This document shows, one piece after another, positions 9,605 to 61,543 of a stretch of 64,000 bases of DNA; position 1 is the stretch's first letter; the number at the start of each line of letters is the position of its first letter. The notes under the pieces were generated by a model. It saw nothing but the letters and a program-made list of their open reading frames with translations. It was not told where the DNA came from and did no database searches. The DNA is from Thermodesulfobacterium sp. TA1 (GTDB lineage: Bacteria > Desulfobacterota > Thermodesulfobacteria > Thermodesulfobacteriales > Thermodesulfobacteriaceae), in the NCBI RefSeq assembly GCF_008630935.1, contig NZ_CP043908.1:62001-126000 (forward strand). Reading direction: 5' to 3'. A program made the position numbers and the translations under genes.

Positions 9605-9629
9605 GATGCTACCTCCTTTTTAAGATTTT

Positions 9630-9760
9630 TGTCCCTCACACCATCCTCCCGAGTAGCTGGGGCTTTGGTAGCCCAACCAACTTATCGGGTGTTGAGGGAC
9701 AGAGGGACATACTCCTTAAGAGGCTCAAAGGCCTACCAAAAATGGAGTCCCTGTCCCTCT
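9630..9760 (-). ncRNA. Candidate IS110 bridge RNA (two adjacent stem-loops)
   Basis: Upstream of the transposase start, two hairpins abut. The first pairs 9630-9642 with 9688-9701 (TGTCCCTCACACC with GGTGTTGAGGGACA, one bulge) and encloses a smaller GGGCT/AGCCC stem. The second pairs 9701-9709 with 9752-9760 (AGAGGGACA with TGTCCCTCT, perfect), continued by ACTCC/GGAGT, and encloses AGGC/GCCT at 9721-9734. Two stem-loops with internal loops beside the transposase fit the architecture described for IS110-family bridge (seeker) RNAs, one loop reading the target and one the donor. The strand is inferred from that precedent. GAGGGACA occurs twice in tandem, so alternative pairings are possible. 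Confidence 0.6.
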
Positions 9761-9840
9761 CTAACTTATAAGCTTTTGTTTTATTATACAAAACAAAATG
9801 TGTTAAACAAACCTTAACATAAAAATTGCAGGAGGAAAAG

Positions 9841-11259: not shown

Positions 11260-13633
11260 TGAATATTTATCTCTTGGACAAGAGGCTTTAAACAGAAAGG
11301 ACTATCAAGAAGCAGTTAACCTTTTCAAAGAAGCTATAAACCAAGGGGAGAAAAAAGAGGTATGGGCTGGACTTGCCGAGGCATACTATCTTTTAAACGA
11401 TTTGCCATCGGCTATTTGGGCTTACCATAAACTTCTTGAGATAGACCCAGAAAACGAAAAGGCCAAGCTTAAAATAGAAGAGATTGCCGAGCAACTAAAG
11501 ACATTGCAGCCTAAAAAGTCAACCCAGCGGATAAAATTTAAAGCTGAAGAAGATTTCCTCTGGATTAAAAGGCAAGAGCGTTGGGAAAAATTTTTTATTA
11601 AAGGGGTTAACCTTGGTCTAAGTCTTCCTGGTTATTTTCCCGGAGAATATCCTATTAAAATGGAAACCTATTTAAAATGGTTTAGCCTTATTTATGAGAT
11701 GGGGGTAAACACCATAAGGGTTTATGCCCTTCAATCTCCTGGATTTTACCAAGCTTTGTTTGAATTCAACCAGGATGAGCCTAAACTCTTTTTGTTGCAA
11801 GGAATATGGTATGAACCTGAAAAGGCAGAAGACCTTGAGGATGAAAGGTTTTTAAAAAGACTAAAGGAGCATCTAAAAGATGTAGTTGATGCTATTCATG
11901 GAAATACCACTTTACCAGAAAAACCAGGGTTGCCTTCAGGAAGATATCTATGGGATGTCTCCCCCTATTTATTAGGATATCTTTTTGGAAGGGAGCCTGA
12001 AGCCTGCTTAGTCAAAGCTTATAACGAACTTTATGAAAGAAAAACCCAAGATTTTTATGGAAAATATCTTTATGTAGAAAAGGGAAATCCTTTTGAGGTT
12101 TGGAACGCAAAAATTTTAGACCACCTTTTAACCTATTCTTATGAAACCTACCAGAGTATACCTCTTGTTTCAGTAGTAAACTGGATTACCCTTGACCCTT
12201 TAGAGCATCCTACTGAATCTCACATAGAAGAAGAAGAGGCCTTTTTTACAGGAAGAAGACCTAACCTTAAAAGATGTAATGAAAACGAGGACATGGAGGT
12301 TTTTGATACTTTTAAGATAAAAAGTAGTTTTAACTGTTTTTTTTCTTCTTATCATATTTATCCTTACTACCCGGATTTTATGAACTATGAATTTTTAGAG
12401 GAAAAACGACCTTATTTAGCCTATCTTAAACGTTTAAAAGCGCGTCACCAAGGACAGGCTTTGGTGGTTGCAGAGTTTGGAATACCAACCAGTAGGGCTT
12501 CAGCCCATTGGCACCCACATGGCTGGACCCATGGAGGTAAAAACGAAGTTGAGCAAGGCAAAATTTTAGTAGAAATGATAAAAGACATAAAAGAGGCAGG
12601 GTATGCAGGTTATGCGATTTTTAGCTGGACTGATGAATGGTTTAAAGTAAACTGGCTTTTTATGAACTATTACTTACCGAGAGACCGAAAACGTCTTTGG
12701 TTTAACCTACAAGACCCTGAAGAAAACTATGGATTGGTTGAGGTTTATCCAGGTTATCCTAAGAAAAAAATCACTTTAGAAGGGAATCTTAAAGAATGGG
12801 AAGACGCTTTTACCGTTTATAAAACAAACAAATCCCTAACCCAAGAGGGAGAGATAAAATCAATAAGATTAACCCATGACGAAGGGTTTTTATACCTTTT
12901 GATAGAAACTTATAAAAAGATAGATTTTAAAAAGGTAAATTTTTTGGTGGGAATAGATACTGGATATCAAGAATATGGAGAATTTGTCTTTCCTTTGGAT
13001 ATAGACCTTATTTCTCCTGTGGGACTTAAGTTTTTAATTCATCTTGCAGGAAAAAATAGTTCAAGAATCCTTGTTGCCTCTGCTTATAATAAAATGCTTT
13101 CTCACGGTAAGTTTTTTTCTCCAAAGAAAGAGGTATTTCCTCAGAAAAGTTTAGAAGGAAAATGGAGTTTAGTCTTGTGTAAAACTAACATGAGACGTAT
13201 AACCAAGGATTTTAAGAGATTTTTTGGTCCCAAATTTTTTAATTTAAGTATGTTAAGGTTTGGTAGCCTTAAACCTGAAAGCAAAGATTTTAACTCTTTA
13301 GCAGATTTTTATGTTAAAGATAATCTAATAGAGGTAAGACTTCCTTGGGAGCTTTTAAATTTTTCTGACCCAAGCTCAAGAAAGATGTTTTGGAAAGAAG
13401 GAAATAATCTATATAAACAATCTGACGGGATAAGGGTGGTAGCGATAAGTTATAAGCCTGACCTGGAAAACCCTCCCAGGGCTTTAAAACTGTTAGACTT
13501 TGTGCCTCAACCTTTTACTAAAGAGCAGGTTAAAACCTATTTATGGGATGGATGGGAGATGCCTTCGTTTCACACCCGCCTAAAAAAGAGTTATTTTATC
13601 TTAAAAAGGTATTTGAAAAATGAAGAGACTTAA
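11249..13633 (+). CDS. TPR-glycoside hydrolase-like fusion with C-terminal CBM9-like domain
   Basis: This 794-residue protein has three sections. Residues 1-95 are TPRs (ALNRKDYQEAVNLFKEAI; AYHKLLEIDPENEKAK). Residues about 105-510 look like a TIM-barrel glycosidase of the GH2/GH5 type: FFIKGVNLGLSLPGYFPGEY, MGVNTIRVYALQSP, and a late ALVVAEFGIPTS that could hold the catalytic Glu, then YAGYAIFSWTDEWFK. Residues about 515-794 are beta-rich, beginning KKITLEGNLKEWEDAF, which resembles CBM9-like sugar-binding modules. No signal peptide is visible, so it may be cytoplasmic unless exported another way. It overlaps the glycosyltransferase gene by 11 bp. A role in trimming or length control of the polymer is an inference from context. 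Confidence 0.65.
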   Translation: MKANEYLSLGQEALNRKDYQEAVNLFKEAINQGEKKEVWAGLAEAYYLLNDLPSAIWAYHKLLEIDPENEKAKLKIEEIAEQLKTLQPKKSTQRIKFKAEEDFLWIKRQERWEKFFIKGVNLGLSLPGYFPGEYPIKMETYLKWFSLIYEMGVNTIRVYALQSPGFYQALFEFNQDEPKLFLLQGIWYEPEKAEDLEDERFLKRLKEHLKDVVDAIHGNTTLPEKPGLPSGRYLWDVSPYLLGYLFGREPEACLVKAYNELYERKTQDFYGKYLYVEKGNPFEVWNAKILDHLLTYSYETYQSIPLVSVVNWITLDPLEHPTESHIEEEEAFFTGRRPNLKRCNENEDMEVFDTFKIKSSFNCFFSSYHIYPYYPDFMNYEFLEEKRPYLAYLKRLKARHQGQALVVAEFGIPTSRASAHWHPHGWTHGGKNEVEQGKILVEMIKDIKEAGYAGYAIFSWTDEWFKVNWLFMNYYLPRDRKRLWFNLQDPEENYGLVEVYPGYPKKKITLEGNLKEWEDAFTVYKTNKSLTQEGEIKSIRLTHDEGFLYLLIETYKKIDFKKVNFLVGIDTGYQEYGEFVFPLDIDLISPVGLKFLIHLAGKNSSRILVASAYNKMLSHGKFFSPKKEVFPQKSLEGKWSLVLCKTNMRRITKDFKRFFGPKFFNLSMLRFGSLKPESKDFNSLADFYVKDNLIEVRLPWELLNFSDPSSRKMFWKEGNNLYKQSDGIRVVAISYKPDLENPPRALKLLDFVPQPFTKEQVKTYLWDGWEMPSFHTRLKKSYFILKRYLKNEET

Positions 13634-14417
13634 AAGAAGAGATTTTTTAAAGATATTAGCCTTGTCAAGTCTCGGTAGTTTTTTTGATACTTCTGCGGTT
13701 TTTTCTGAAAACCTCAAAAAAACCTATCAAGAAGAAAGTTTTCCTGTTTTACTCTATCACGAGATAGCCTATGAACCTCTTACCGATTATACCGTTACTC
13801 CAGAGGATTTTTTCTCTCAGATGGAACTGCTTTATTCTTTGGGATTTAAAACTATATTACCTGATGAGATACATACAGCTTTGACAAAAAAACAAAGAAA
13901 GGTAATAATTACTTTTGATGATGGCAGTTATACCTTTTTAGAATACGCCTATCCTGTGCTTAAGTCCTATGATTTTAAGGTAGTGATGAACGTGATAGGA
14001 AGTAAAGTAGGTAAAGGATGGTTTATAAGCTGGGACGAATATAGAGAAATAATGAAGGATGGACTACTTGAAATAGGTTGTCATAGCTATGATTTTCACT
14101 TTCTAAATTGGAGCAAAAAGTTAACTTTGAAAGATTTTGAGAGAGACCTTACAAGATTTAAAGAAGAAGCCTACAAATATTTAAAAAAAGAAGTTACCAT
14201 TTTTTCTTCTCCTTTAGGAGAAACTTTAACAGAGGGGCATGTTAAGGTTTTAGAAAAACTTGGGTTTAAATATATATTTATTTCAGAAGGTAAAACCTTA
14301 AAGAGCACCTACTATAACCCCAATTTAAATCAAAGACTTATCCCAAGGTTTAACTTAAATCACTATTTTAACCTGCAGGATTTTAAGAACTTGGTAATGA
14401 AAGGAGAGGCCCTATGA
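13620..14417 (+). CDS. Exported polysaccharide deacetylase (NodB/CE4 family), Tat-type signal
   Basis: A 265-residue CE4 esterase. The N-terminus KRRDFLKILALSSLGSF contains a twin-arginine RRDFLK motif before a hydrophobic stretch, suggesting Tat export. VLLYHEIAYEPL precedes motif 1, ITFDDGS (near residue 97), and motif 2, CHSYDFH (near 156), which supplies the metal-binding His pair. The family removes N- or O-acetyl groups from sugar polymers; PgaB is the best-known counterpart in poly-GlcNAc export. It overlaps both neighbours in the operon (14 bp upstream, 4 bp downstream). It lacks PgaB's C-terminal hydrolase domain, a role that the TPR-glycosidase next door could take. Confidence 0.85.
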   Translation: MKRLKRRDFLKILALSSLGSFFDTSAVFSENLKKTYQEESFPVLLYHEIAYEPLTDYTVTPEDFFSQMELLYSLGFKTILPDEIHTALTKKQRKVIITFDDGSYTFLEYAYPVLKSYDFKVVMNVIGSKVGKGWFISWDEYREIMKDGLLEIGCHSYDFHFLNWSKKLTLKDFERDLTRFKEEAYKYLKKEVTIFSSPLGETLTEGHVKVLEKLGFKYIFISEGKTLKSTYYNPNLNQRLIPRFNLNHYFNLQDFKNLVMKGEAL

Positions 14418-15940
14418 GAAGGTTCCTATGGTTAGTTTTAGCCTGTTTGGTTGGTTTTTATTTAATGAAAGGTTGGGTTTGGGCAGAAACGATTCCGTCA
14501 GTTTCACAAGATGAAACCAAAGCCCTATCTTTGCAACATAAAACAGCAGGAGATGAGTGGTTTAAAAAGGGTGATATGAAAAACGCCGCCAAGGAATATA
14601 TAGAGGCTTTGAAGCTTTATAAAAATTATGAAATAGAAGACATTGTTACCATGGCTACCAGGATTTCCTGGGGCGGCAAACTAAAGGAGGCAGAAGAGAT
14701 CCTAAGGGAGGTTTTAAAAAAGGAACCTCAAAACCGTAGGGCTAAACTACAGCTGGCAAGGGTTGTTTCTTGGCAAGGAAGGCAGATAGAGGCCTTAAGC
14801 CTTGTTGATAGTCTTCTTAAAAACGACCCAAACGACGAAGAAGCCTTGTTGGTTAAGGCAAATGCCTTGAGGTTTTTAGGAAGGGCGGATAAATCCTTAG
14901 AGATATACGACCAGATCCTTGCCAAAAGGGAAGATTTTGACGCTAGATTAGGAAAGGCTTATTCCTATGCTAACCTAAGGATATCTTCTAAAGTAGAAGA
15001 AAACGCTAAACTTTTAAAACCGCAGTATCCTTATCAGAAAAAAGACATAGATGACCTTGAAACTTATAGAAGGTCTCTTTTTAATCCTGCTGTTTTTACA
15101 GGTTTTTCTTATTTTCAGGATACAGATGAAAACGAGGTTTATACTTATCGTTTGGGTTTTGAAACCTATCTAAAGGACCTTAGGATAGTAGGTAATTATT
15201 TTTATCGTGAAGGGTCAGACAATCTAAGAACAGCCTACTCAGATGAACTAACCTTCGAGATAGGTAAAAGGTTTACCCAATCTTTGTGGGGTTATGTAAA
15301 CTTTGGTATTTCTCAGGCTAAAGGAGACCAGGATTTTGTAGTCGGTGGTGCAGGATTAAACTTATTGGTCTGGAGGGGGACTACTGGAATTTCTTTTAAC
15401 AAGAGCGTTCTTATCGATACAGCAGAACTTATGGAAAACGGTATTAAGATTTCTACAGTAAACTATTTTATCGACCAGGTGATAACCGACCGTATCTCTT
15501 TATATGCTAATTATAATCATCGTTGGTATTCAGACGATAACCAGGCAGATTTTGTTCAAGCCTCAATCAGATATAAGCTTAAGTTTGGTAATCCTTTGGT
15601 AATCCTTGGATATAGAGCAGTTTATTTAGATTTTAAAAAACAAATGAGAAACGGATATTTTGATCCTGATGATTTTTGGTCAAACCAGGTGTTTTTGACA
15701 GTATATTATGAGACACCAAAAATGTATGTTTATTTAGAGCCTTTTATCGGACATCAGACTTTTAGACGTAATGGGCTTTGGTCCTATGATAAGGCTTATG
15801 GAGGCACAGGCACATTGGGTGTTAAGCTAAAAGAGAATTTGAGTGTGGAGATGTCCTTAGAGGGTGGAAATTATGCTGCAGGCACAGCTTCAGGCTGGAA
15901 ATACTATCAGACAGGTTTTTTGATAAAATATGTTTTTTAA
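14414..15940 (+). CDS. TPR plus outer-membrane beta-barrel protein (YaiO/PgaA-like exporter)
   Basis: The 508-residue product has a Sec signal peptide (hydrophobic residues about 5-24, cleavage near VWAET). Residues about 30-215 hold tetratricopeptide repeats (AGDEWFKKGDMKNAAKEYIEALKLYKN; EAEEILREVLKKEPQNRRAKLQLARV). From about 225 to the C-terminus alternating aromatic/polar strands end in WKYYQTGFLIKYVF, a beta-barrel-type end with terminal Phe. This TPR-plus-barrel order matches YaiO-type proteins and resembles PgaA, the poly-GlcNAc porin. Within the operon it is the obvious outer-membrane exit for the polymer. It overlaps the deacetylase gene by 4 bp (ATGA). Confidence 0.82.
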   Translation: MRRFLWLVLACLVGFYLMKGWVWAETIPSVSQDETKALSLQHKTAGDEWFKKGDMKNAAKEYIEALKLYKNYEIEDIVTMATRISWGGKLKEAEEILREVLKKEPQNRRAKLQLARVVSWQGRQIEALSLVDSLLKNDPNDEEALLVKANALRFLGRADKSLEIYDQILAKREDFDARLGKAYSYANLRISSKVEENAKLLKPQYPYQKKDIDDLETYRRSLFNPAVFTGFSYFQDTDENEVYTYRLGFETYLKDLRIVGNYFYREGSDNLRTAYSDELTFEIGKRFTQSLWGYVNFGISQAKGDQDFVVGGAGLNLLVWRGTTGISFNKSVLIDTAELMENGIKISTVNYFIDQVITDRISLYANYNHRWYSDDNQADFVQASIRYKLKFGNPLVILGYRAVYLDFKKQMRNGYFDPDDFWSNQVFLTVYYETPKMYVYLEPFIGHQTFRRNGLWSYDKAYGGTGTLGVKLKENLSVEMSLEGGNYAAGTASGWKYYQTGFLIKYVF

Positions 15941-15953
15941 ATGAGGACCTTTG

Positions 15954-16871
15954 ATGTATATAGCCAGAAAGCCGGTTAATGGTGGTTATGAGTATAGCCT
16001 TAAAAAATCTTATTATGACCCGCCTTATTGGAAAAGTAAACTGATCTTAAACTTAGGGACCGATCCAGCAAAGTACATTACTTATTATAGTGAAGTTGCG
16101 TTTTCTATAGATTTAGAGGAAGAGTTAGCTAACTTAGGATATTCTACAGACCAGCAAGAATTAGAAAACCTGTTTTTTAGGTTTTTAAACCCTGAAACCC
16201 AGAGAATTATAAGTCAGTTTACCAAACCCAAAAGTATAAAAAGGTCGGAAAAACCGGTTAGTTTAGACCTTTTTCATCCTTTTGATGTGAAAAGGTATAT
16301 AGTTTTAAAACTTGGGGTCCTTGAGCCTGAAAAGTTTCTTTCTTATCCTTTTCCGTTTTTAAAAAATATCATTAAAAAATCAAGGGATGAATTAGAAAAT
16401 TTTTTCTGGGATATGGAAGATGAGTTAAACCATAGAGAAAAAATGAAATATGTAAGGGCGATTTTTGGGGTATTAAAGCTACCATATCAGATGAGAGAGG
16501 AAGAGGTAGACGACTTGTTTTTGAAAAACCTTTGTCAGGTTTTAGAGGACGAGGATTTTAGGATGGGTTTAACCAAAGAAGAAGTTTTATGCACCTATTT
16601 TTGCAGGTATATTTGGTTATACTTTGATAACAAACCGAGGTTTTATCAAAGAGAGAATCTTTATAAAACCTTTTATGAAAGGATTTATGTTGAGGCTGCC
16701 TATTATCTTGGAGTTTCGATAGACGAGATAAAAAGGGCCAACAAAAAAGAGATATTAATTCTTTTTAGGAAGATGGCTAAAGTGTTACACCCTGACCAAG
16801 GGGGGTCTAAAGAAGGTTTTATAAAACTTAAAAAGGTGGTAGAAGAACTTCTCAAACTTAAGAAAGACTAA
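15954..16871 (+). CDS. J-domain (DnaJ-like) protein of unknown role
   Basis: The first about 240 of 305 residues match nothing I recognise; they are soluble and rich in Phe, Lys and Glu. The C-terminal about 60 residues form a J-domain: YYLGVSIDEIKRANKKEI, then FRKMAKVLHPDQGGSKEGF with the HPD tripeptide that stimulates DnaK ATPase. This suggests a co-chaperone that delivers a particular client, perhaps a component of the exopolysaccharide machinery encoded just upstream. The ATG at 15954 is preferred over a TTG at 15951 because GAGG at 15944-15947 has the right spacing. The 3' end overlaps the convergent CARF nuclease gene by 4 bp. Confidence 0.7.
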   Translation: MYIARKPVNGGYEYSLKKSYYDPPYWKSKLILNLGTDPAKYITYYSEVAFSIDLEEELANLGYSTDQQELENLFFRFLNPETQRIISQFTKPKSIKRSEKPVSLDLFHPFDVKRYIVLKLGVLEPEKFLSYPFPFLKNIIKKSRDELENFFWDMEDELNHREKMKYVRAIFGVLKLPYQMREEEVDDLFLKNLCQVLEDEDFRMGLTKEEVLCTYFCRYIWLYFDNKPRFYQRENLYKTFYERIYVEAAYYLGVSIDEIKRANKKEILILFRKMAKVLHPDQGGSKEGFIKLKKVVEELLKLKKD

Positions 16872-34724: not shown

Positions 34725-34772
34725 ATATTTATTTAATTGAGTTTAAAAATCAAATAAAATGGAGTTAAAAGG

Positions 34773-35207
34773 ATGTTAGAAGAGATAAGGAAATTTCGAA
34801 GTTTTATAAAATCTAAAGGTTTAAAGTATACTCCAGAAAGGGAGAAAATTTTTCAAGAAATTTTGGAATATACTAAACATTTTGATGTAGAAGACGTTTA
34901 TCTCAGTTTAAAAAACAAAGGACATAAAATTTCAAAAGCTTCGGTTTATAGAACCATTCCTCTTTTGATAGAAGGAGGATATATTCAAGAAGTTTACAGA
35001 CAGAATGGCCGATCCTTCTATGAAGTTACTTTAAAGAAAAAACTGCATTTACATTTTATTTGTATAAAGTGTAAACAAGTAGAGGAGATGATAGACGAAA
35101 GACTGGAAATTTTGCTACAAAAGGACATGAAAAGGAAAGGGTTTTTACCTTTAACCTATCATCTTGAAATTTTTGGTATCTGTCAGAGATGCAGGCAGAC
35201 AGGATAG
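34773..35207 (+). CDS. Fur-family metal-responsive transcriptional regulator
   Basis: 144 residues. The winged-helix domain has SKGLKYTPEREKIFQEI and SKASVYRTIPLLIEGG. The dimerisation domain shows the metal-site YEVTLKKKLHLHFICIKCKQVEEM and a final CQRC, giving the two CxxC pairs of the structural zinc site. Family members repress iron, zinc, manganese or peroxide genes; subtype cannot be decided here, but the downstream FeoA-like gene suggests iron. The promoter at 34697-34724 drives it, and the FeoA-like gene begins 15 bp after its stop. Confidence 0.88.
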   Translation: MLEEIRKFRSFIKSKGLKYTPEREKIFQEILEYTKHFDVEDVYLSLKNKGHKISKASVYRTIPLLIEGGYIQEVYRQNGRSFYEVTLKKKLHLHFICIKCKQVEEMIDERLEILLQKDMKRKGFLPLTYHLEIFGICQRCRQTG

Positions 35208-35221
35208 TGGAGGTATTTTTT

Positions 35222-35509
35222 ATGTTGTTAATAGACGCTAAATGCGGAGATAAGGTAAAGATAGAAGACTTTTTAGGAGAAGATGCTATAATAAAAAAAA
35301 TAGAGGCGATGGGATTAAGAAAGGGGGATGTTTTTGAGGTTTTAAGAGTTTGGGGAAGAAACTTTTTACTTAAAAATGAAACTTCAAAGGTAGTTATAAG
35401 TTTTGATGTAGCTAAAAACATAATGGTTGAGCTGTTGGGTAAGGTGGTTAATCCTGAGTGTGAATGTAAGCCTTGTAAGAAAAAAAAACATAGATGGGGT
35501 TGGTTCTGA
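35222..35509 (+). CDS. FeoA-like small protein with Cys-rich tail
   Basis: 95 residues. It has the SH3-like FeoA core: LLIDAKCGDKVKIEDF, IIKKIEAMGLRKGDVFEVL, and VVISFDVAKNIMVELLG. The C-terminus adds NPECECKPCKKKKHRWGWF, with three Cys and a His that could bind metal and are not part of standard FeoA. GGAGG at 35209-35213 fits the ATG at 35222, so the in-frame upstream codons overlapping fur are not used. FeoA normally aids the FeoB ferrous-iron transporter, but no feoB is nearby. The stop overlaps the next start (TGATG). Confidence 0.78.
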   Translation: MLLIDAKCGDKVKIEDFLGEDAIIKKIEAMGLRKGDVFEVLRVWGRNFLLKNETSKVVISFDVAKNIMVELLGKVVNPECECKPCKKKKHRWGWF

Positions 35510-36468
35510 TGGAAAAACGCTCTTTTACTCGTATACCTATTCCTGTAGACGTTGAGTTTTTGGTAGGGACTGAGAGTTACCCAGCCAAGATAAAAGACAT
35601 AAGCTATGGAGGGGTATTTTTAGAAAGTAAGTTTTGTCCAGAACCTAATCAAGAGGTGGTCTTAGTCTTATTTTTAAGCCCTGAGGTGAAGATTTTTATC
35701 AAAGGTATAGTGGTAAGGAAGGAAGAAGGAAAGGGATTTGGTATAAAGTTTACCTACATTTCTCCTGAAAGCTTTGAACATTTAAAAAATCTTATCTATT
35801 ACAATTTTCCCTCTGAAGAAAGAGCTTTTAAAGAACTAAGAAGGTTTTTAGGTAAGGCTAATCCTTTGGTACAGACTGTGAGTGAAATCTGTCGTCAGGC
35901 TAAAAGAGAAACTCTTCTAAATTTTATCTTAGAAAGAGCCTTCCTTTATTCTCCAGAAAAGCCGTTTGTTTTAGCTAGTGGCAAAGAAAGTCCTTATTAT
36001 TTAGACTGCAGAAAGGTGACCCTTTATTCTAAAAGCTTTGAGCTAGTAGGTTGTGTTTTTTGGCAAGAAATAAGGTTTCTTGGGGTAGACGGAGTTGCAG
36101 GGATGAGTATCGGAGCTGACCCGATTGTCTGTGCCATCCTTTCTAAAGCCCAAGAAGAAGACTATCCTTTAGAGGGACTTTTGATAAGGAAAGAGCCTAA
36201 AAAATATGGCACGTCTAAGCAAATAGAGGGGAATTTTTATCCTGGTATGGAGGTAGTTTTAGTAGAAGACGTAATAACTACAGGAGGGTCTTTACTAAAA
36301 GCGATCGAGGTTTTAGAAAAAGAAAAGATAAAAATCATAAAAGTTATGGCTTTTGTTGATCGGGAAGAGGGAGGAAGAGAAAGGATAGAAGAAAGAGGGT
36401 ATGAGTTTACATCTATTTTTACTTTTTCAGAAATCATTAAAGCCTATCAAAAAGGTGCAGGGAGGTAA
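35509..36468 (+). CDS. PilZ domain fused to orotate phosphoribosyltransferase
   Basis: One continuous frame of about 319 residues. Residues 1-105 form a PilZ domain with both c-di-GMP motifs: RSFTR (RxxxR) near the start and DISYGGVFLES (DxSxxG). Residues about 125-319 are an orotate phosphoribosyltransferase: PFVLASGKESPYYLDCRKVTL, the catalytic loop RKEPKKYGTSKQIEG, and the PRPP-binding VVLVEDVITTGGSLLKAIEVL. OPRT makes OMP from orotate and PRPP in pyrimidine synthesis. The fusion suggests that c-di-GMP modulates the enzyme, an inference. The ATG at 35509 overlaps the FeoA stop (TGATG); an in-frame ATG lies 15 bp earlier at 35494. The 3' end is 4 bp from the pstS start. Confidence 0.9.
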   Translation: MEKRSFTRIPIPVDVEFLVGTESYPAKIKDISYGGVFLESKFCPEPNQEVVLVLFLSPEVKIFIKGIVVRKEEGKGFGIKFTYISPESFEHLKNLIYYNFPSEERAFKELRRFLGKANPLVQTVSEICRQAKRETLLNFILERAFLYSPEKPFVLASGKESPYYLDCRKVTLYSKSFELVGCVFWQEIRFLGVDGVAGMSIGADPIVCAILSKAQEEDYPLEGLLIRKEPKKYGTSKQIEGNFYPGMEVVLVEDVITTGGSLLKAIEVLEKEKIKIIKVMAFVDREEGGRERIEERGYEFTSIFTFSEIIKAYQKGAGR

Positions 36469-36472
36469 ATTC

Positions 36473-37498
36473 ATGAAGCTAAAAACCTTGGTTCTGATTT
36501 TAATTTTAGTTTTAGGACTTTTTGGTTGTAAAGGAGGTAATGAAAAGGCTTCTAAGTTTATTAACGGAGCAGGGGCAAGTTTTCCTTATATTCTTTATGC
36601 TAATTGGGCAAATGAGTATTATAAACTTACAGGTATTAAGGTCAATTATCAATCTATAGGCTCTGGAGGTGGTATCAAACAGATCATCGAAAAAACCGTT
36701 GATTTTGGTGCTACAGATAAACCCTTAACCCCTAAGGAGGTAGAAGACAACAAACTTCTTCAGTTTCCTACGGTTATCGGAGGGGTCGTTCCAGTGGTTA
36801 ACTTACCTGAGCTTAAAGATAAAAGTTTGGTTTTAGACGGAAAAACCCTTTGTTATATCTTTTTAGGTAAGATAAAGAAGTTTAACGATCAAGAGATAAA
36901 AAAACTTAACCCAGACATAAACCTCCCTGATAAAGAAATTTTAGTGGTCTATAGGGCTGATGGATCAGGGACTACAGCCATATTTACCTATTATCTTTCT
37001 CAAGTTTGTGCTGAATGGAAAAAAGAAGTAGGGACAGGAACTTCGGTAAGCTGGAAAACCGGAGTAGGGGCTAAAGGAAACGAAGGAGTCTCTAATTATG
37101 TAAAAAAGACTCCTTATACTATAGGGTATATAGAATATGCCTATGCGGTTCAAAACAAGCTTTCTATGGTAAGTTTAAAAAACGCACAAGGGGTTGTAGT
37201 TTCTCCCTCTGAAGAGTCTTTTAAAGAAGCCGCTAGGGCTGCAGATTTAGACCCAAAAAAACACTTTTATGTCTGGCTTACCAACACACCTGGAGAGAAG
37301 GCTTGGCCAATTACTGGAGTAACTTATATTTTACTTTCTAAAGAAAAAGGAGAGGTAAACAAGGAGGTGGTTAAGTTTTTTGAATGGGCCTTTAAACAAG
37401 GGGATGAAATAGCTAAAAAGCTAACCTATGTACCTCTCCCAGAAGAGGTAAAGACTAAAATCTATAAGTATTGGGAGGAAAACGGGGTCAAACCATAA
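36473..37498 (+). CDS. pstS: PstS-like phosphate-binding lipoprotein
   Basis: About 341 residues. A lipoprotein signal peptide (LVLILILVLGLFGCKGG, Cys at residue 19) precedes a type II periplasmic binding fold with the PstS signatures FINGAGASFPYILYANWANEY, YQSIGSGGGIKQI, DFGATDKPL and YRADGSGTTAIFTYYL, the residues that bind phosphate. The ATG at 36473 is preferred because GGGAGG precedes it and the lipobox then falls at the right place; an earlier in-frame ATG at 36401 would give a 24-residue extension inside the previous gene. No pstCAB follows, so the permease must be elsewhere. Confidence 0.88.
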   Translation: MKLKTLVLILILVLGLFGCKGGNEKASKFINGAGASFPYILYANWANEYYKLTGIKVNYQSIGSGGGIKQIIEKTVDFGATDKPLTPKEVEDNKLLQFPTVIGGVVPVVNLPELKDKSLVLDGKTLCYIFLGKIKKFNDQEIKKLNPDINLPDKEILVVYRADGSGTTAIFTYYLSQVCAEWKKEVGTGTSVSWKTGVGAKGNEGVSNYVKKTPYTIGYIEYAYAVQNKLSMVSLKNAQGVVVSPSEESFKEAARAADLDPKKHFYVWLTNTPGEKAWPITGVTYILLSKEKGEVNKEVVKFFEWAFKQGDEIAKKLTYVPLPEEVKTKIYKYWEENGVKP

Positions 37499-50471: not shown

Positions 50472-51110
50472 ATGATAACCAGGCAAAGAAATAACAACGT
50501 AGTTTGGCATAGACCTCTCGTTACAAGACAAATGAGAGAAGTTTTGAATGGGCACAAAAGCCTTGTTCTTTGGTTTACAGGTCTTCCAAGCTCTGGCAAG
50601 TCTACTATCGCCCACGCTTTAGAGAAAAAGCTCTATGACCTAAAGGTAAGAACTTACACCTTAGATGGAGACAACATACGTCACGGACTTTGTAGTGACT
50701 TAGGTTTTTCTCCTGAGGAGAGAGCTGAAAATTTGCGAAGAATTGCAGAAGTAATTAAGCTCTTTTTAGACGCTGGTATCGTTGTTCTCTGTGCTTTCGT
50801 TTCTCCTTACAAAAAAGATAGAGAAAAGGTCAAAAAAATAGTAGGAAACGAAAACTTCGTTGAAATCTACTGTAGGTGTCCTGTTGAGGTGTGTAAGAAA
50901 AGAGATCCTAAGGGATTTTACGAGAAAGCAGAAAAAGGAGAGATTAAGAACTACACGGGAGTTTCTGCTCCTTATGAAGAGCCAGAAAATCCTGACCTCA
51001 TTCTTGACACTCATTTGCTCACTGTAGAAGAAAGCGTAGAAAAGATTTTAAATTTTGTGATTGACAAAATTTTACTCAAAGGGGAACCTTCCCCAAAAGC
51101 TTCCGTTTAA
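50472..51110 (+). CDS. cysC: Adenylylsulfate kinase
   Basis: 212 residues. The N-terminus NNVVWHRPLVTRQMREVLNG matches CysC, followed by the P-loop LWFTGLPSSGKSTIAHALE, YTLDGDNIRHGLCSDLGFS, ENLRRIAEVIKLFLDAGIVV, and the FVSPYKKDRE loop with the expected Ser. It phosphorylates APS to PAPS. Sulfate reducers use APS directly for respiration, so a CysC in a glycan locus most likely supplies PAPS to sulfotransferases, of which two candidates lie at 57.6-63.3 kb. No ribosome-binding site is visible before the ATG. The 3' end overlaps convergent kpsS by 39 bp. Confidence 0.92.
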   Translation: MITRQRNNNVVWHRPLVTRQMREVLNGHKSLVLWFTGLPSSGKSTIAHALEKKLYDLKVRTYTLDGDNIRHGLCSDLGFSPEERAENLRRIAEVIKLFLDAGIVVLCAFVSPYKKDREKVKKIVGNENFVEIYCRCPVEVCKKRDPKGFYEKAEKGEIKNYTGVSAPYEEPENPDLILDTHLLTVEESVEKILNFVIDKILLKGEPSPKASV

Positions 51111-52265
51111 CTGCGTGGTTTTTACGATGTAATTGTAAAAATTTTTAAAAAGTTTTCTGTCTATTGTTCCAGGATCTTTCCAAAAGTCATTTAATTCTCC
51201 TTGAAAAGTAAGACCAGGAACGTCGTAAATTGCTCTTCCCATCGCTTTAACAGGAATATTGTGATACAAGGCTTGCAATCCAACTGTACTGTTTATCACC
51301 ACAACTCCCAAACTGTTCTTAATTAAAGTAGGTAAATGCAAATCGTGAACGTAAAATACCCGTCCTTTTATACCAAATTTTTCTGCTAAGTTTTTAATAA
51401 GTTTTTTATAACACACAAAGCCTCTGTCAACTGGATGATGTTTAAAAACGATGAAGTGTTCTTTTAAAGCGTGCTTAGAAAATGATTCCAAGACTTCTTC
51501 AATAAATTCACTTACAGAATTGTACTCACTATGCACAAGAACTTGAGAATCGTTAAAAACCTGCAAGGGAACCAAAAAATACCTTTTTTTGAGCTCACCT
51601 GTTAACAGCGAAAAAATAGGTTTTTCGGTTATTTTATAAATTTTTTTTCTTATAACACCTCTTAATAAACATAAAAGATAAGGAACGTAAGGAAAGTAGT
51701 TTTTATATGGTTTGTAATGCGGAAATTTCCATCTCAGAAGTTCTAAAAACAAGTAATGTAAAAAGGAACTTAAAGCCCTTTTTGAGAACCGAAACTCGTT
51801 CGGTTTTGGTTCTGGAATTCCAAAATTAGGTAAATTTAAGTAAAATTGAGGATTTTTGGGAATTTTTGAAAATCCGTTTAATCCATACTTCTCCATAGTA
51901 ATGTAGTGTGGTCTCACATAGCCTTCCTCAAAAACATACCAATCAATTTGATAATCTCTACAGACCTCAATTGCAACTTTGTGATATGGTTTATAATCTC
52001 CGTACATAAGAACTAAGTCAATTTCTTTTTCCTCAATAAGGTTTTCTAAAAACTTTCTAAAGTTTTCAAACTTATCGGTAAAGTTGTAAGAGTTTTTAAA
52101 ATCAGGATAAGTTATCAAATCTCCTCCGTTGAAGTTTACTTTATAAACTTTTTTCCCAAGACTTTTAAGATACTTACCAAGTTTGTAGAAAAACAAACCT
52201 TTCGGTCCTTGAAGCAATAGAACACTTTTGTAAGGTAAAAGCTCCTTTTCTACATCTCTTGCCAT
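51072..52265 (-). CDS. kpsS: KpsS-like capsule Kdo-transferase
   Basis: 397 residues. VLLLQGPKGLFFYKLGKYLKSLG, YVFEEGYVRPHYITMEKYGLNGF, VLVHSEYNSVSEFIEEVLESF, VFKHHPVDRG and VVVINSTVGLQALYHNIPVKAMG are hallmarks of capsule-export protein KpsS, which, with KpsC, adds beta-Kdo residues to a phosphatidylglycerol acceptor to prime group 2-type capsules. It starts 4 bp after the stop of kpsC on the same strand, so the two are co-transcribed. The last codons overlap cysC on the other strand. Confidence 0.85.
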   Translation of the reverse strand: MARDVEKELLPYKSVLLLQGPKGLFFYKLGKYLKSLGKKVYKVNFNGGDLITYPDFKNSYNFTDKFENFRKFLENLIEEKEIDLVLMYGDYKPYHKVAIEVCRDYQIDWYVFEEGYVRPHYITMEKYGLNGFSKIPKNPQFYLNLPNFGIPEPKPNEFRFSKRALSSFLHYLFLELLRWKFPHYKPYKNYFPYVPYLLCLLRGVIRKKIYKITEKPIFSLLTGELKKRYFLVPLQVFNDSQVLVHSEYNSVSEFIEEVLESFSKHALKEHFIVFKHHPVDRGFVCYKKLIKNLAEKFGIKGRVFYVHDLHLPTLIKNSLGVVVINSTVGLQALYHNIPVKAMGRAIYDVPGLTFQGELNDFWKDPGTIDRKLFKNFYNYIVKTTQLNGSFWGRFPFE

Positions 52266-52269
52266 AAAA

Positions 52270-54306
52270 CTACGCTCTTAGTAACCATTTCAAGGCACAA
52301 ATCCAGTTTTTGAGTTTTTTAAAAGGGTAAAAAGATTTCGATCGTAAAATTTTAACATTCCTTTCACGTTCTTCAATAATTCTATAGATGATAGTTTTGC
52401 AGTCTACAAATCCCTTTAACTTCCAATCGTAGTAAAGAGGATAAACTAGCAAAACCCCTGCAATAAGTTCTAAAAGGGAAAGTTTTCTTTTTCTCCTCGG
52501 GAAACTAACTTCGTCAAAGGTCAAACCCCATCCGGCGTAAAAGGCACCTCCGTAAGTGAAAACAGGTTTTTCTCTTATCAAAGCTTCAAACCCAGAAAGA
52601 GAACTTATGGTGTGGATTTCGTCTGCCACCTCAATTAAACTAAGGATGTCCGTCTCAGTTTCAATTCTATTACACATCTTTTGAATTTCTTTAAAGTTTT
52701 TTTCCATTCTTTTGTTCTTAGAAATTACGTCAGGATGTGGTTTGTAGATTATGTATTCTTCTGGATACTTTGTACGAACTCTTTTAATTAATTCGAAGTT
52801 CGTCTTTATTCCGTTTCCCAAAATAACTGCTTGGTCTGTTTCAACTTGACCAGGAACGAGGATTATTTTTTTGTCGTAGTTAGGTCTTTTCAAAGGTCTT
52901 GATGCTCCCACGTTATACTTTGTTATCCGATGCTTAATTATTAAATCCCGTATTTCTTCTGCCTCTTTAAGCTCTTCTTTACTAAACTGATAAGTATTTA
53001 GAATTCTTTCTAAATCACTTTCTTGAGTAGCATCGTAGTAAATGCCGGTTTTATCAATGACGATGCTCATTGGTGGGACAAATTCTGCACCTAAACCAAC
53101 AGACCTTATGAAACCGTCCTCAACACATAAAACTTCAACATCCTTAGATATTAATTCAACCTCTTTTCTTGCTTTTGCTCCCCAAACTACGATAGCTGTA
53201 TTCTTATTTTTAACGAGAACCTTTGCAAGACTTTCTACACTTTTCACTTCATTAAAGGGAGTTTTAAAAAAAGGTAAAAGCTGATTTCGCTTAAGGAAGT
53301 GCATTTTATAAAAGTAGTAACTTTTTCTACCAAAAAGGTTAGCCATTTTTCTTTGTTTTAGAATAAAATCAATAACGTCAAATATCGTTCCTTTTCTTCC
53401 GGTAACGGGATCTACGTAACGAGGATATTTTAAATATGTTGCAGTGAAAATTTCTAAGACTGTTCTTTTTCTATTTCTTCTTGGGCAGTTGACACGATCC
53501 TTCGTAATACCCCATCCTGCATAAAAGGGTAGCCCAAAGCAGTGAACTTCTTTTCCCAAAAGCAATGCTTCAAAACCCATCTGTGAGCTTACCGTGTAGA
53601 CCTTGTCAAAAAATTCAAGTAGCGTTAGAGGATTGACGTCCTCGGCAATGAAAAAGACCTCTTTGTCCTTCTTAGCTAATTCAAAAAGATAACCCTTTTT
53701 CTTGCCAGACAAAACGTCGGGATGAATTTTAACATAAACATCAGCCTCTGGATTTTCCTCTTTAGCTTTGTTAAGCATTTCTCTAAAGGTGTTTTCTGTA
53801 GCACCTCCATAAAGAACAGAAGCATCCTTGTAAGTTTGGTCAACAACTAAAACTCTTTTCTCTTTCTTTCCCTTCAGGATATCTCTTTCTGCAAAAGGGG
53901 CGTAGTTGTATTTACTTATCTTTTTTTCTATGAGGACCTGTAAGGCCTTTTCCCCCTCTTCAAGTTCATCCTTTGTGAATTCGTAGTGATTTAGAATTTC
54001 CTCAAGTAAAGACGGAGTGTTTGCGTTGTAATAAATTCCTACTGGATCAACGATTAGGGAAAGGGGGGGGTATCCTTTAACTCTTAGTCCGTAAGAACAA
54101 ACAAAACCATCTTCAAGGGCATAGTATGGAAGACCGTGTTTTTTTGCAAAATCTCTTGCTTTTTTTGCAGTAGGCTTTAATCCCCAGCCTATCACCCCAG
54201 TTACCTGATTGAGGTCTACTTTTTGTGAGTACAAAACGACCTTTTTCTCAAGAAAGGATTCTAAAAAAGGTATACTAAAAATTTCTTTTGAAAAGGTAAG
54301 AAACAT
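52270..54306 (-). CDS. kpsC: KpsC-like capsule Kdo-transferase with duplicated domain
   Basis: 678 residues built from two similar halves. The first has VIGWGLKPTAKKARDFAKKHG, YALEDGFVCSYGLRVKGYPP, VKIHPDVLSGKKKGYLF, and PFYAGWGITKDRVNCPRRNR. The second repeats the pattern: VVWGAKARKEVELI, CVEDGFIRSVGLGAEFVPP, YKPHPDVISKNKR, FYAGWGLTFDEVSFPRRKRK. KpsC carries two GT modules that alternate in making the poly-Kdo linker of group 2 capsules. Length equals that of known KpsC. With kpsS it indicates a lipid-linked capsule, though the ABC export genes kpsMTDE are not in view. Confidence 0.9.
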   Translation of the reverse strand: MFLTFSKEIFSIPFLESFLEKKVVLYSQKVDLNQVTGVIGWGLKPTAKKARDFAKKHGLPYYALEDGFVCSYGLRVKGYPPLSLIVDPVGIYYNANTPSLLEEILNHYEFTKDELEEGEKALQVLIEKKISKYNYAPFAERDILKGKKEKRVLVVDQTYKDASVLYGGATENTFREMLNKAKEENPEADVYVKIHPDVLSGKKKGYLFELAKKDKEVFFIAEDVNPLTLLEFFDKVYTVSSQMGFEALLLGKEVHCFGLPFYAGWGITKDRVNCPRRNRKRTVLEIFTATYLKYPRYVDPVTGRKGTIFDVIDFILKQRKMANLFGRKSYYFYKMHFLKRNQLLPFFKTPFNEVKSVESLAKVLVKNKNTAIVVWGAKARKEVELISKDVEVLCVEDGFIRSVGLGAEFVPPMSIVIDKTGIYYDATQESDLERILNTYQFSKEELKEAEEIRDLIIKHRITKYNVGASRPLKRPNYDKKIILVPGQVETDQAVILGNGIKTNFELIKRVRTKYPEEYIIYKPHPDVISKNKRMEKNFKEIQKMCNRIETETDILSLIEVADEIHTISSLSGFEALIREKPVFTYGGAFYAGWGLTFDEVSFPRRKRKLSLLELIAGVLLVYPLYYDWKLKGFVDCKTIIYRIIEERERNVKILRSKSFYPFKKLKNWICALKWLLRA

Positions 54307-54312
54307 AAAGAC

Positions 54313-55290
54313 CTAAATATTAATTTTTTTGTAGTCCTCTAAGGTTTTTTCTTTTAGGTGATATAAGAGGTTTTTTGCACCTTCAAAGAGCTCTTTTCTT
54401 TTTTCGTGGTTGTCTGCTAACTCTAAAATTGCAGACTTCCAAGCCTTAATTTCCATGGGAAGGACGATGCCTGCTTGAAGCTCCTTTATACTCTTAGCAA
54501 GAGGAAAGTATTCCGAGTATATTCCTACTGCTCCACTTCTCATGATGTTATAGAATTTAACATAAGATCTTGCCTTATTAAAGAGATTATCAAACAAAGG
54601 AGCAAGCCCAATGTGTCTGTATTTAAGGGAAGAAAAGGTTAGGTATTCAGTCCACTTCATAGAATGAACGAGGTATAAATTTTTGATAGGCTTATACATC
54701 TTTGCAGTCCTTTGGTCAACGACAATTTCAAAGAAAAGCTTTTCAGATTGTAACTCATTTAAGAGGTTTCTTAGCCAAACAAACTCTACCTTGTGAGAGG
54801 CAGTAGCGTGGTAAAAGACGAGAGTCCTTTGAGCTTCTGGAGATAATAAAAGGTCCTTTTCCTCTATGTGTGTAGGGTAAGGGGGTAAGACTATAGGATT
54901 AAATTTTTGATATTTTTCTGCAAGGTAATCATTGGAAACAAAGATTTGCGTGTTAGTAGTTAACCAATTCTTAAACTTCCAAGCTTTGTTAAAGATCTTG
55001 AAAGCGTATCTTAAAGGCAAATCTTTGAGAACTTTAAGGTCAAAAAGGTCGTCATCCATAAAGTAGTAAATTTTATCAATTATATCTACGCTCTTTTTAA
55101 TCCACCTTAAAACCTCTCCGGTTAAGTATCTCACAATAAGAAGTCTAACTCTTTCGCTAAATACAAAATTTGACAATTCTTTATGAGTTAATCGAATAAA
55201 ATTTAAATTTTTATTTTTTAGTAAAGGAACTATGTAATAATCTGTAGTTGGATTTATGTTTTCTTCAATTATGATATAAATCATTTTCAA
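54313..55290 (-). CDS. Glycosyltransferase-like protein (GT-B type, surface glycan)
   Basis: 325 residues. The sequence has a GT-B-like feel: an N-terminal Rossmann-like half (MIYIIIEENINPTTDYYIVPLL; YYFMDDDLFDLKVLKDLP) and a C-terminal half with FYHATASHKVEFVWLRNLL, HIGLAPLFDNLFNKARSYVKFYNIMRSGAVGIYSEYFPLAKSIKE, recalling the donor-binding E-x7-E region of GT4 enzymes, although the usual EPFG motif is replaced. It is 6 bp downstream of kpsC in the same direction of reading, i.e. upstream in the operon. Sugar specificity is unknown. Confidence 0.65.
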   Translation of the reverse strand: MKMIYIIIEENINPTTDYYIVPLLKNKNLNFIRLTHKELSNFVFSERVRLLIVRYLTGEVLRWIKKSVDIIDKIYYFMDDDLFDLKVLKDLPLRYAFKIFNKAWKFKNWLTTNTQIFVSNDYLAEKYQKFNPIVLPPYPTHIEEKDLLLSPEAQRTLVFYHATASHKVEFVWLRNLLNELQSEKLFFEIVVDQRTAKMYKPIKNLYLVHSMKWTEYLTFSSLKYRHIGLAPLFDNLFNKARSYVKFYNIMRSGAVGIYSEYFPLAKSIKELQAGIVLPMEIKAWKSAILELADNHEKRKELFEGAKNLLYHLKEKTLEDYKKINI

Positions 55291-55506
55291 AGTTTATTTT
55301 AATTTGTATTTACTTTGTCAGACTTCACCTTTCTTGGGCTGCAACTTCTTCCTTTGATTTTATATTATTTCCACACTTGTGCAAGAAATTTTTACTATAT
55401 TTTTTCTAAAACGAAAATTTGTAAAAATATGAAGGAAGATAAAGGGACCTATTTTTGTTTAATGCTTTCATCTATTATTGAAAAACGGTAGTTTCTCATT
55501 TTAGCT

Positions 55507-57276
55507 TTAATTTATAAATTCAAAAAACCAACTCACTGGTTTGAGGTTAAGTAATTTTTCCTTTTCTTTAGCAAAGTCATGATAGGTCATTTTTTTGATG
55601 TTTTCTGGGCTAATACTGAGCTTATCCTCAGGCACACCCCTTTTTACTAAACCAACTCCCCAGTCTGTATTAACGACTGCCACAAAAAGGTCCTCTCGCG
55701 TCGCTCTTAAATGAATTATCGTTTTATAAACATCTCCTGTCCAGTTCCCTTTAAAATCCGGATGTTTTCTGGCTTCTTCAAGAGTAGGCATAGCAGTAGC
55801 AGGTGAATCTGGCAAACAATCGTGCATTACTATAACCCCATTTGGGTTCAGGTATTTCAAGCAGTTTTCTACATCTCTGAGAGACTGCTCGTAAGTGTGT
55901 AAGCCATCTATCAAGACTATATCCAAGCCTCTTTCTAAAATTTCCTTAGGTGGATTTGCAAAAAATTCATCGCTTGTCATCGTAAAGAATTTTTCTTTCT
56001 CTGTATCTTTTACGCCACCTGGGATTACAAATTTAGGATCTACTGCAAGCTTTAACTCTGCATCTATCTGGAAAAAATTCATTCCCATTTCCACACCTAT
56101 TTCAAGATAAGTTTTAAAACCGAACTTATTTATTAAGTGTTGAATTATAGTTGTTCTTTCAAGAATGCCCTTTTGAAGTTTAAGTTCAATAATCTCCTTA
56201 AAGGTTTTCCTAAAAGCTTCTTCTCGGCCCAGAGCCCAGTAGGAAAGCCCAAGCATAACCTTGGAATGTATGTCTTCAGGTAGTTTTTCCGCTAATTTTT
56301 CATAACATACCTGCATCAAATGATAAGAATTTGTATTCCAAGAATGGTTGGCTAATTGTCTGAGAGCTTGTAAATCATCAGGAAGCTGACTTGTGATAAT
56401 AGATTTTTCATATGCATCTGTGGATTTCAAAACTGTATTAATTAACTTCACACTATTCGGATTTATGAATTTCGCTCTAAGTAAGAAGATTACATGTTCC
56501 ACCGCTGAACTAAATTGTTTTCTTTCAACGTATATTTCAGCTAATTTATACCTAAGCCAAGCATTGTGTGGAAAGGAATTTACTCCAAGAATCGCATATT
56601 TTAAAGCTTCATCCAATCTTCCATCATTCTTGAGAATATTAATCGCATTTGCGTAATACTGTGGGTTGTTTGGAGCGGTTTTTACTGCATCAAGATAAAC
56701 TCTTTCAGCTACTTTCTTATTGTTGAACTCCGGAAAAGGAGAATTAATAAGTTCCTTTGAAGAGGGTTTCTGAAAGACAGCAAAAGTATCTTGCCACTCC
56801 CCAAGCCCCCAGTCTGTAAATACCTCAACCACTTTAAATCCAGCCCACTTTGCAAGTGCTCTCATACCATCAGGATAAAACCTCCAACAATCATATGGAT
56901 ACTTATGCTCAGGTCCAGAGGAAGGAGCAATAATACAGCAAACGCCAGATGGCTTAAGAATCCTATAAATCTCTTTTATAGTGAGCCAAGGAAATTCAAC
57001 ATGCTCAAAAGCTTGCCCACTGATAACCACATCCGCGAAGTTATCAGGCACTTCTTTCCAATTGTAAGGATTAGAAACTACTATATCTACATTTACCCCA
57101 GGATCTAAATCAAGCCCAAAGTATTTCCATTTTTGCTTGTTAAAGAAAGGTCTATAGGTTGGATTACCAGAATAAGCCTTAGCACCTACATCAATTATTA
57201 TAAGCTCGGCGTCTTCAAATTCTGCAAGATACCCTTCCACAAAGGCTTTCATTTTGTTAAGGGACGTGGAATGCAT
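55507..57276 (-). CDS. Fusion of two SAM-methyltransferase domains with a TPR-like linker
   Basis: 589 residues. Residues about 1-170 are a class I methyltransferase (AELIIIDVGAKAYSGNP as motif I; YFGLDLDPGVNVDIVVSN; DVVISGQAFEHVEFP; IYRILKPSGVCCIIAPSSG). Residues about 190-375 contain TPR-like helices (AINILKNDGRLDEALKYAILGVNSFPHNAWLRYKLAEIYVE). Residues about 380-560 are a second methyltransferase of the Methyltransf_24 kind (FKTYLEIGVEMGMNFFQID; LDIVLIDGLHTYEQSLRDVENCLKYL; GVIVMHDCLPDS). It may add two methyl groups to a glycan in succession. It is separated by 216 bp from its downstream and 279 bp from its upstream neighbours, which hold no gene I can support. Confidence 0.8.
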   Translation of the reverse strand: MHSTSLNKMKAFVEGYLAEFEDAELIIIDVGAKAYSGNPTYRPFFNKQKWKYFGLDLDPGVNVDIVVSNPYNWKEVPDNFADVVISGQAFEHVEFPWLTIKEIYRILKPSGVCCIIAPSSGPEHKYPYDCWRFYPDGMRALAKWAGFKVVEVFTDWGLGEWQDTFAVFQKPSSKELINSPFPEFNNKKVAERVYLDAVKTAPNNPQYYANAINILKNDGRLDEALKYAILGVNSFPHNAWLRYKLAEIYVERKQFSSAVEHVIFLLRAKFINPNSVKLINTVLKSTDAYEKSIITSQLPDDLQALRQLANHSWNTNSYHLMQVCYEKLAEKLPEDIHSKVMLGLSYWALGREEAFRKTFKEIIELKLQKGILERTTIIQHLINKFGFKTYLEIGVEMGMNFFQIDAELKLAVDPKFVIPGGVKDTEKEKFFTMTSDEFFANPPKEILERGLDIVLIDGLHTYEQSLRDVENCLKYLNPNGVIVMHDCLPDSPATAMPTLEEARKHPDFKGNWTGDVYKTIIHLRATREDLFVAVVNTDWGVGLVKRGVPEDKLSISPENIKKMTYHDFAKEKEKLLNLKPVSWFFEFIN

Positions 57277-57555
57277 ACTTATCTATTTATGATTTTTTCA
57301 TAGCTGGTCTAAAAATACTTCTTTTTACCTTCCTTTTTTCTACGCTTGACACGGCAAATGTACTGAAATTAGAAATAAAAATCTCTCCTCTAATGCCTCA
57401 ATCTCCTTCTTTATTTCACCTAAAACACTCTAACTAACGCTAACGCCTTCCACTGAGATACCTTACCAAATACATCAAGTCTTTCTTCTAAAATCTTTTG
57501 AATTAGGTCTTCGAGTTACATTTTTTTATCCTCTATTGTTAGCGATATATTAATT
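57277..57555. other. Intergenic gap in the glycan locus
   Basis: 279 bp, AT-rich, with some leftover coding-like stretches (for example a leftward LGEIKKEIE-like reading near 57400) but no intact frame, promoter or hairpin that I would defend. Confidence 0.4.
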
Positions 57556-58504
57556 TCATAAAATTAATATTTTATCACCATTTTTGTTTTTAAGATAAAG
57601 CCTTATTGGTTTTTCTTCTGTAGCTACGACTCCCTCAACTTTAAACCTTGCATTCTTTGCATGGGGATTATCTGGATACATATTTGCATACCCTGGTGAA
57701 GGAAGTCCCCACTGAACCTCTTTAATACCTTCTGCATCCTCCAACAAAAGCCTGTATTCTTCCTTTACCTCCGGCTTTAGCACTACAACTCCTCCAACCA
57801 CCAGCTTGCTACCTTTCAGCAAGTCCAAATAAAGCTGGTCTATAACTACCTTTTCTACTATATCTACTTCTATTGCTAATTTAGAAATCTTAACTGGTAC
57901 ATAAGGTTTATCCATAATGAGCTTTTTAGCAACCGTTTTATGTGAAATAATATAGCCTGTCCTTGCATGGATTATTTGAATTTCTAAATTTTCTCCGTCA
58001 GGAAGATCTAAAATACTTTTAGGAAGCTTCAAATCCTTCCAGAAAACTCTAAAACCAACATTAAAATTAACTCCAAACAGGGCTTTTATATCCTTTCTCT
58101 CTAAATTACAAATTCCATTATAAACATCTATACCGTTAATCCTTATTAAAAAGCTTATTTCCTCTCCCTTTAACGCATTTAAATCAAACAACCAACCTTC
58201 AATAACTCTTTCATTACATACATCAAGCCTACCATCAACAAAGTCTTTTACTAATCCTCCTTTTACTAACTCATATGTAAGTTCAGAGCAACCATACACT
58301 TGGTAAGCATAAACTTTATCTCTTGGAATTAAAAATTTTTCTTTAATTAATGCTAAACACTTATAATATCTTTCATTAATTTCAAGCTCTATTTCTTCTT
58401 TTAATATTTTGTCTTGCTCTTGGTAGAAAAATTCTTCTTCAGGGGATAATATAAATTTGTTCTCCTGGTTAAAATATTCTTTAAATAATAAATTGTTTGG
58501 TTCA
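57556..58504 (-). pseudogene. C-terminal half of the split sulfotransferase gene (frame continues upstream)
   Basis: A GTG at 58299 could start a 247-residue protein, but the same frame stays open upstream to the GAAA tract at 58522-58537, giving NEPNNLLFKEYFNQENKFIL, SPEEEFFYQEQDKILKEE and IPRDKVYAYQVYGCSEL before it, with no ATG or ribosome-binding site. So it reads as the downstream half of the sulfotransferase gene, one tetranucleotide out of frame. Residues after the GTG contain a beta-rich segment (VIEGWLFDLNALKGEEISFLIRING) and a C-terminal module, VVGGVVVLK...VQWGLPSPGYANMYPDNP...ARFKVEG, shared with two neighbours. When in frame, the whole product would be about 595 residues. Confidence 0.7.
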
Positions 58505-59344: not shown

Positions 59345-59353
59345 TTTAACCCC

Positions 59354-60331: not shown

Positions 60332-60383
60332 CTTAAATTAACCTCTCAAATTTAACATAAACTTTAATTTTAAAACTTAATTA

Positions 60384-61529: not shown

Positions 61530-61543
61530 CTAAGAACCTCCTT

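Follow-up and report, generated by a model that had tools for sequence, protein, structure and literature searches.

Described PilZ receptors and OPRT enzymes

A PilZ domain can act on its target in trans or in cis. MapZ (PA4608) of Pseudomonas aeruginosa, a free single-domain protein, is an inhibitor of the methyltransferase CheR1 that acts only with c-di-GMP (PMC6370697). In the cellulose synthase BcsA and in Alg44, the PilZ domain is joined in cis to an enzyme or to a component of export, and c-di-GMP is the allosteric signal (PMC12564702). The PilZ domains that bind c-di-GMP are marked by two motifs, RxxxR and (D/N)xSxxG (rule per PMC12943098), and binding is lost when motif positions of Alg44 are mutated (PMC12564702). 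Known bacterial orotate phosphoribosyltransferases (OPRT, PyrE) are single-domain proteins, and in UMP synthase (human UMPS, Leishmania) the OPRT is fused to OMP decarboxylase—the next enzyme of the pathway.

In the window—the whole stretch of 64,000 nucleotides analysed here, from Thermodesulfobacterium sp. TA1—one gene joins a PilZ domain to an OPRT, a new architecture built of known parts. The protein resembles MapZ in the PilZ barrel, in the C-terminal helices that follow it, and in its RxxxR and DxSxxG motifs, but its PilZ domain is covalently bound to a nucleotide-synthesis enzyme instead of acting in trans on a methyltransferase. The arrangement in cis is shared with BcsA and Alg44; these, however, serve polysaccharide production at the membrane, whereas the enzyme described here is soluble and works in central nucleotide metabolism. 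Like UMP synthase, it is an OPRT with a second domain, yet the partner is of signal-receptor type and not a further pathway enzyme. In contrast to single-domain PyrE, it bears a sensor-type module of ~130 residues in front of the catalytic domain. No paper found describes a PilZ–OPRT architecture, in a literature search that left most subscription journals outside, and no direct c-di-GMP receptor in the pyrimidine pathway appeared in the papers searched. Our preferred reading, which we hold with slightly more confidence than doubt, is that the cell's only OPRT carries a built-in, N-terminal, c-di-GMP-responsive PilZ domain that controls it in cis, most likely by inhibition.

Architecture of the fusion protein

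The open frame, as read in the window, extends from 35494 to a TAA at 36466–36468 and offers three candidate in-frame starts: ATG 35494, TTG 35500, and ATG 35509. The last of these lies immediately 5′ of the conserved beginning of the PilZ domain and overlaps with the stop codon of the FeoA-like gene before it (Table 1). Internal initiation that would yield a free OPRT was considered and rejected, as the members of the genus share no start codon at the junction that has a convincing ribosome site. Both domains score far above their curated cut-offs, which are 22.5 bits for the Pfam PilZ profile (matched over positions 1–101 of 102) and 106.8 bits for the pyrE equivalog-domain profile TIGR00336 (129.7 bits in the genome search). 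The original prediction of a PilZ domain and a complete OPRT—with catalytic loop and PRPP site—in one uninterrupted frame is thus borne out.

Table 1 Features of the fusion locus and of the exopolysaccharide cluster, in window coordinates
Feature	Position	Strand	Description
Fur-family regulator	34773..35207	+	upstream, first gene of putative transcription unit; PF01475 91 bits
FeoA-like protein	35189..35509	+	PF04023 40 bits; stop overlaps fusion start (TGATG)
PilZ–OPRT fusion gene	35509..36468	+	319 aa plus stop; one frame, 20 other genomes alike
PilZ domain (aa 2–97)	35512..35799	+	PF07238 61.5 bits; PilZ fold, best match MapZ/PA4608 (Z 11)
RxxxR c-di-GMP motif (R4-S-F-T-R8)	35518..35532	+	both Arg invariant in 21/21 fusions
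(D/N)xSxxG motif (D30-I-S-Y-G-G35)	35596..35613	+	canonical in 13/13 of the window's genus, 3/8 elsewhere
Helical connector (aa 86–144)	35764..35940	+	PilZ C-terminal helices 86–99 and 103–117, then 119–144 entering OPRT (AlphaFold2 models)
OPRT domain (aa 131–315)	35899..36453	+	TIGR00336 128.3 bits over aa 152–308; aa 130–311 match 2p1z (Z 23.1)
OPRT catalytic loop RKEPKKYGT (aa 227–235)	36187..36213	+	R227, K228, K231, Y233, G234 invariant 21/21
PRPP-binding motif VLVEDVITTGGS (aa 250–261)	36256..36291	+	E253, D254, T257, T258, G259, S261 invariant
PstS-like phosphate-binding protein	36461..37498	+	downstream; PF12849 121 bits
Exopolysaccharide cluster	8411–16868		GT2 glycosyltransferase, polysaccharide deacetylase, TPR and unknown proteins
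Family 2 glycosyltransferase of the cluster	9826–11256
Polysaccharide deacetylase of the cluster	13620–14414

The PilZ half belongs to the MapZ-like type by barrel, C-terminal helices, and full-length sequence match. PA4608/MapZ is its best full-length match in sequence (E 2.9e-9 over aa 2–117), and the folds superpose over 116 residues with Z 11.0 and an rmsd of 3.7 (aa 2–123, including the C-terminal helices). The window protein carries both motifs of the c-di-GMP-binding class, as had been predicted (RSFTR at R4–R8, DISYGG from D30), and places itself in that class by sequence. This integrity holds throughout the window's genus but only in part beyond it: the second motif is altered in five of the eight fusions of the other genera, although fusion and selection persist there. 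In three of these A or G replaces S (DLALGG in G014, DIGLGG in G020, DLGFGG in G028), and in two S replaces the last G (DMSLGS in G024, DFSLAS in G026). Hence, a c-di-GMP switch may not serve the whole clade; as judged from these motifs, control may be limited to part of it, or the altered fusions may be weaker binders.

The OPRT half shows a whole catalytic domain with the motifs SGKESPYYLDCR, RKEPKKYGT, and VVLVEDVITTGGS, and aligns over aa 130–311 with the solved OPRTs of Corynebacterium (2p1z) and M. tuberculosis (5hkf) at Z 22–23. Its K231 aligns with K103 of E. coli OPRT, which is essential to catalysis (PMC10087573); this loop lysine and the EDVxTTGxS pattern are present in all 21 fusions. 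The lysine equivalent to E. coli K26 is missing, and every fusion has Ala or Ser in its place (SSG/ASG vs KSG in E. coli). As 2p1z and 5hkf also bear Ser at this position, the residue is not family-defining and marks a known subgroup rather than a loss. The fusion loop further has Tyr instead of the usual His, which we do not read as lost activity: human OPRT (UMPS, 2wns) has KDYG, and Tyr occurs in 2 of 29 free relatives.

Modelled with AlphaFold2 as a monomer, the full-length protein has a mean pLDDT of 86.7 and a pTM of 0.70, which leaves the relative placement of the domains uncertain and makes their coupling a prediction. The model contains a PilZ barrel, and its helices 86–99 and 103–117 are shared with MapZ/PA4608. 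Residues 1–7, including R4, have low model confidence without ligand and are predicted to be disordered.

Distribution, origin, and selection

The fusion is found in 21 of 30 family genomes, distributed over three genera: 13 in the window's genus, 1 in genus g2, and all 7 of genus g6. Within g1, g2, and g6 every genome is fused save one, which is 70% complete. The 20 relatives, from finished and draft assemblies, are 50–87% identical to the window protein, and each has the fusion in one frame. Among the matches listed in a sample of 395 genomes of the phylum, none outside these three genera spans both domains; the rest are OPRT-only or PilZ-only. A contig scan with short peptide patterns, shallow as regards other phyla, found one close relative only, and fusions may thus also occur in other phyla.

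In a tree of the OPRT part, the 21 fused sequences form one clade with 100/100 support, which means that there was one ancient fusion event, before the split of the three genera. Between close pairs, dN/dS is ~0.07–0.24 for the PilZ half, 0–0.16 for the linker, and 0.03–0.14 for the OPRT half, with dS close to saturation or past it for some of them. Purifying selection clearly acts on the PilZ half, which is, hence, maintained as a functional part.

Five non-fused family members carry a free MapZ-like PilZ protein of ~125 aa, which matches fusion residues 1–121, and in a search of the 30 family genomes no such copy was found in any fused one. This suggests, on the evidence of gene content, that the free PilZ gene moved into the fusion; a PilZ tree gave no resolution of its exact parent. 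In G016 and G017 the free gene adjoins radA, distant from pyrE. The ~125-aa free MapZ-like PilZ genes of the non-fused genera g4 and g5 (L042 3185–3553, minus strand; L040) lie by radA and thioredoxin reductase genes, and their second motif is DxAxxG, with Ala in place of Ser. Another occurrence of this PilZ class is at the C terminus of MCP-type chemoreceptors of 650–660 aa (L052, L053, and L054 in G028, G022, and G015, respectively).

Genomic setting

The genome of the window is complete (one contig, 1.83 Mb), and a profile search of it found no second OPRT or pyrE. Three other proteins match weakly as PRT and were set aside as OPRT candidates, being ComF-, HPT-, and PyrR-like. The proposed check for a second pyrE hence leaves the fusion as the only OPRT; de novo pyrimidine synthesis must pass through it, and the organism very probably relies on the fusion to make UMP de novo. 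With pyrF also present, OPRT activity of the fusion is likely. The genome further encodes 17 GGDEF domains, 5 strong EAL domains, and 3 PilZ proteins, by which c-di-GMP signalling is present in this organism. One PilZ protein of ~170 aa (L036, genome C1:1204500–1208000) lies directly 5′ of motA/motB-like genes and is likely a flagellar brake.

The gene order fur–feoA–fusion–pstS is kept in part of the window's genus, and in other genomes the fusion stands beside argJ/surE. A comparison of gene neighbourhoods among the fused genomes found no conserved pyrimidine operon; the neighbours are neither pyrimidine nor biofilm genes and vary between genera. The FeoA-like protein has a Cys/Lys-rich tail (ECECKPCKKKKHRWGWF), and a similar tail is seen again in congeners. 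Directly 5′ of the Fur-family gene, an AT-rich imperfect palindrome (34725–34765) is possibly its own operator.

It had also been suggested that the fusion could link sugar-nucleotide supply to matrix production, given an exopolysaccharide operon in the genome. Apart from co-occurrence, nothing found supports this part: the exopolysaccharide cluster of the window and the fusion are ~19 kb apart with no gene context in common, and none of the genes that adjoin the fusion (fur, feoA, pstS; argJ, surE) is a sugar-nucleotide gene. Such a link is a guess. At 50472–63998 the window holds a capsule-type locus with an APS kinase, a Capsule_synth (KpsC-like) protein, an epimerase, and several sulfotransferase-like proteins, a gene set that suggests a sulfated surface polysaccharide.

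Proposed mechanism and alternatives

Control of the OPRT by c-di-GMP is a plausible and testable function of the fusion. We infer that c-di-GMP would bind the R4/R8 loop and the D30–S32–G35 turn, thereby ordering the N-terminal segment, and that the two C-terminal PilZ helices would be repositioned on binding, as in PA4608/MapZ. Since these helices continue into the 119–144 helix that enters the OPRT, the shift could be passed on to the OPRT dimer and alter closure of the catalytic loop. In E. coli OPRT this loop, on closing, covers the active site of the adjacent subunit (PMC10087573); an altered subunit geometry could hence act on the loop. For the direction of the effect, inhibition is the better guess: following the MapZ precedent, OPRT activity would most likely be lower at high c-di-GMP, and both PRPP use and the making of UMP de novo would track the c-di-GMP state. 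It counts against this reading that, to our knowledge, OPRT is not commonly regarded as the controlled step of the pyrimidine pathway.

The PilZ half might instead be a working c-di-GMP receptor with another protein as its target, the OPRT being the housekeeping carrier of a MapZ-like adaptor—for example, because the OPRT is brought to a partner or because two genes were merely joined. MapZ itself works in this way, in trans on CheR1 (PMC6370697), and the separate MapZ-like PilZ of non-fused relatives, by radA and distant from pyrE, points to an independent life of this domain before the fusion. On the contrary, the fusion has never been re-split in 21 genomes, and the low dN/dS of the linker (0 to 0.16), together with the predicted near-continuous helix, agrees more with coupling than with a loose tether; we regard the adaptor as fairly unlikely. 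Unlikely, too, is a PilZ half that has ceased to respond to c-di-GMP and whose role is structural, for instance in oligomerisation or heat stability, with a constitutive OPRT. The altered second motif of five of the eight fusions outside the genus would fit such a module, and PilZ domains that lack a c-di-GMP switch are known (XC1028, as cited in PMC12564702); but a purely structural domain would have no need of these exposed residues, which are canonical in each of the 13 fusions of the genus, with RxxxR invariant in all 21.

That a sequencing or assembly error joined two genes, or that the frame is open by chance, has next to no probability. This had been named as a possible pitfall of the original prediction, and no point in its favour was found. 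An error is ruled out by the intact one-frame fusion in 20 other genomes of the family—with the window's own, the same frame in 21 genomes at 50–87% identity, in finished and draft assemblies alike—and low dN/dS across the junction speaks against a chance frame as well.

Biological implications

In-cis control of the sole OPRT would, if true, form a direct allosteric link from c-di-GMP to a core nucleotide pathway. Whether c-di-GMP directly determines, through this PilZ domain, how fast UMP is made de novo, possibly balancing the purine side (a GTP-derived signal) against pyrimidine synthesis and PRPP use, is to us evenly poised. A possible sense of such control would be that UMP and PRPP use are coupled to whether the cell is sessile or motile, or else to a GTP-derived signal.

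A link between pyrimidine supply and biofilm matrix is known genetically: E. coli cells blocked in UMP synthesis make less curli and cellulose (PMC3281075), albeit by a different route. The fusion of the sole OPRT in three genera makes a direct link testable. By fusion logic, one would also predict that in related genera the free PyrE may be a target of the free MapZ-like PilZ. For the fused genera, the architecture suggests that a lifestyle signal governs the rate of UMP production.
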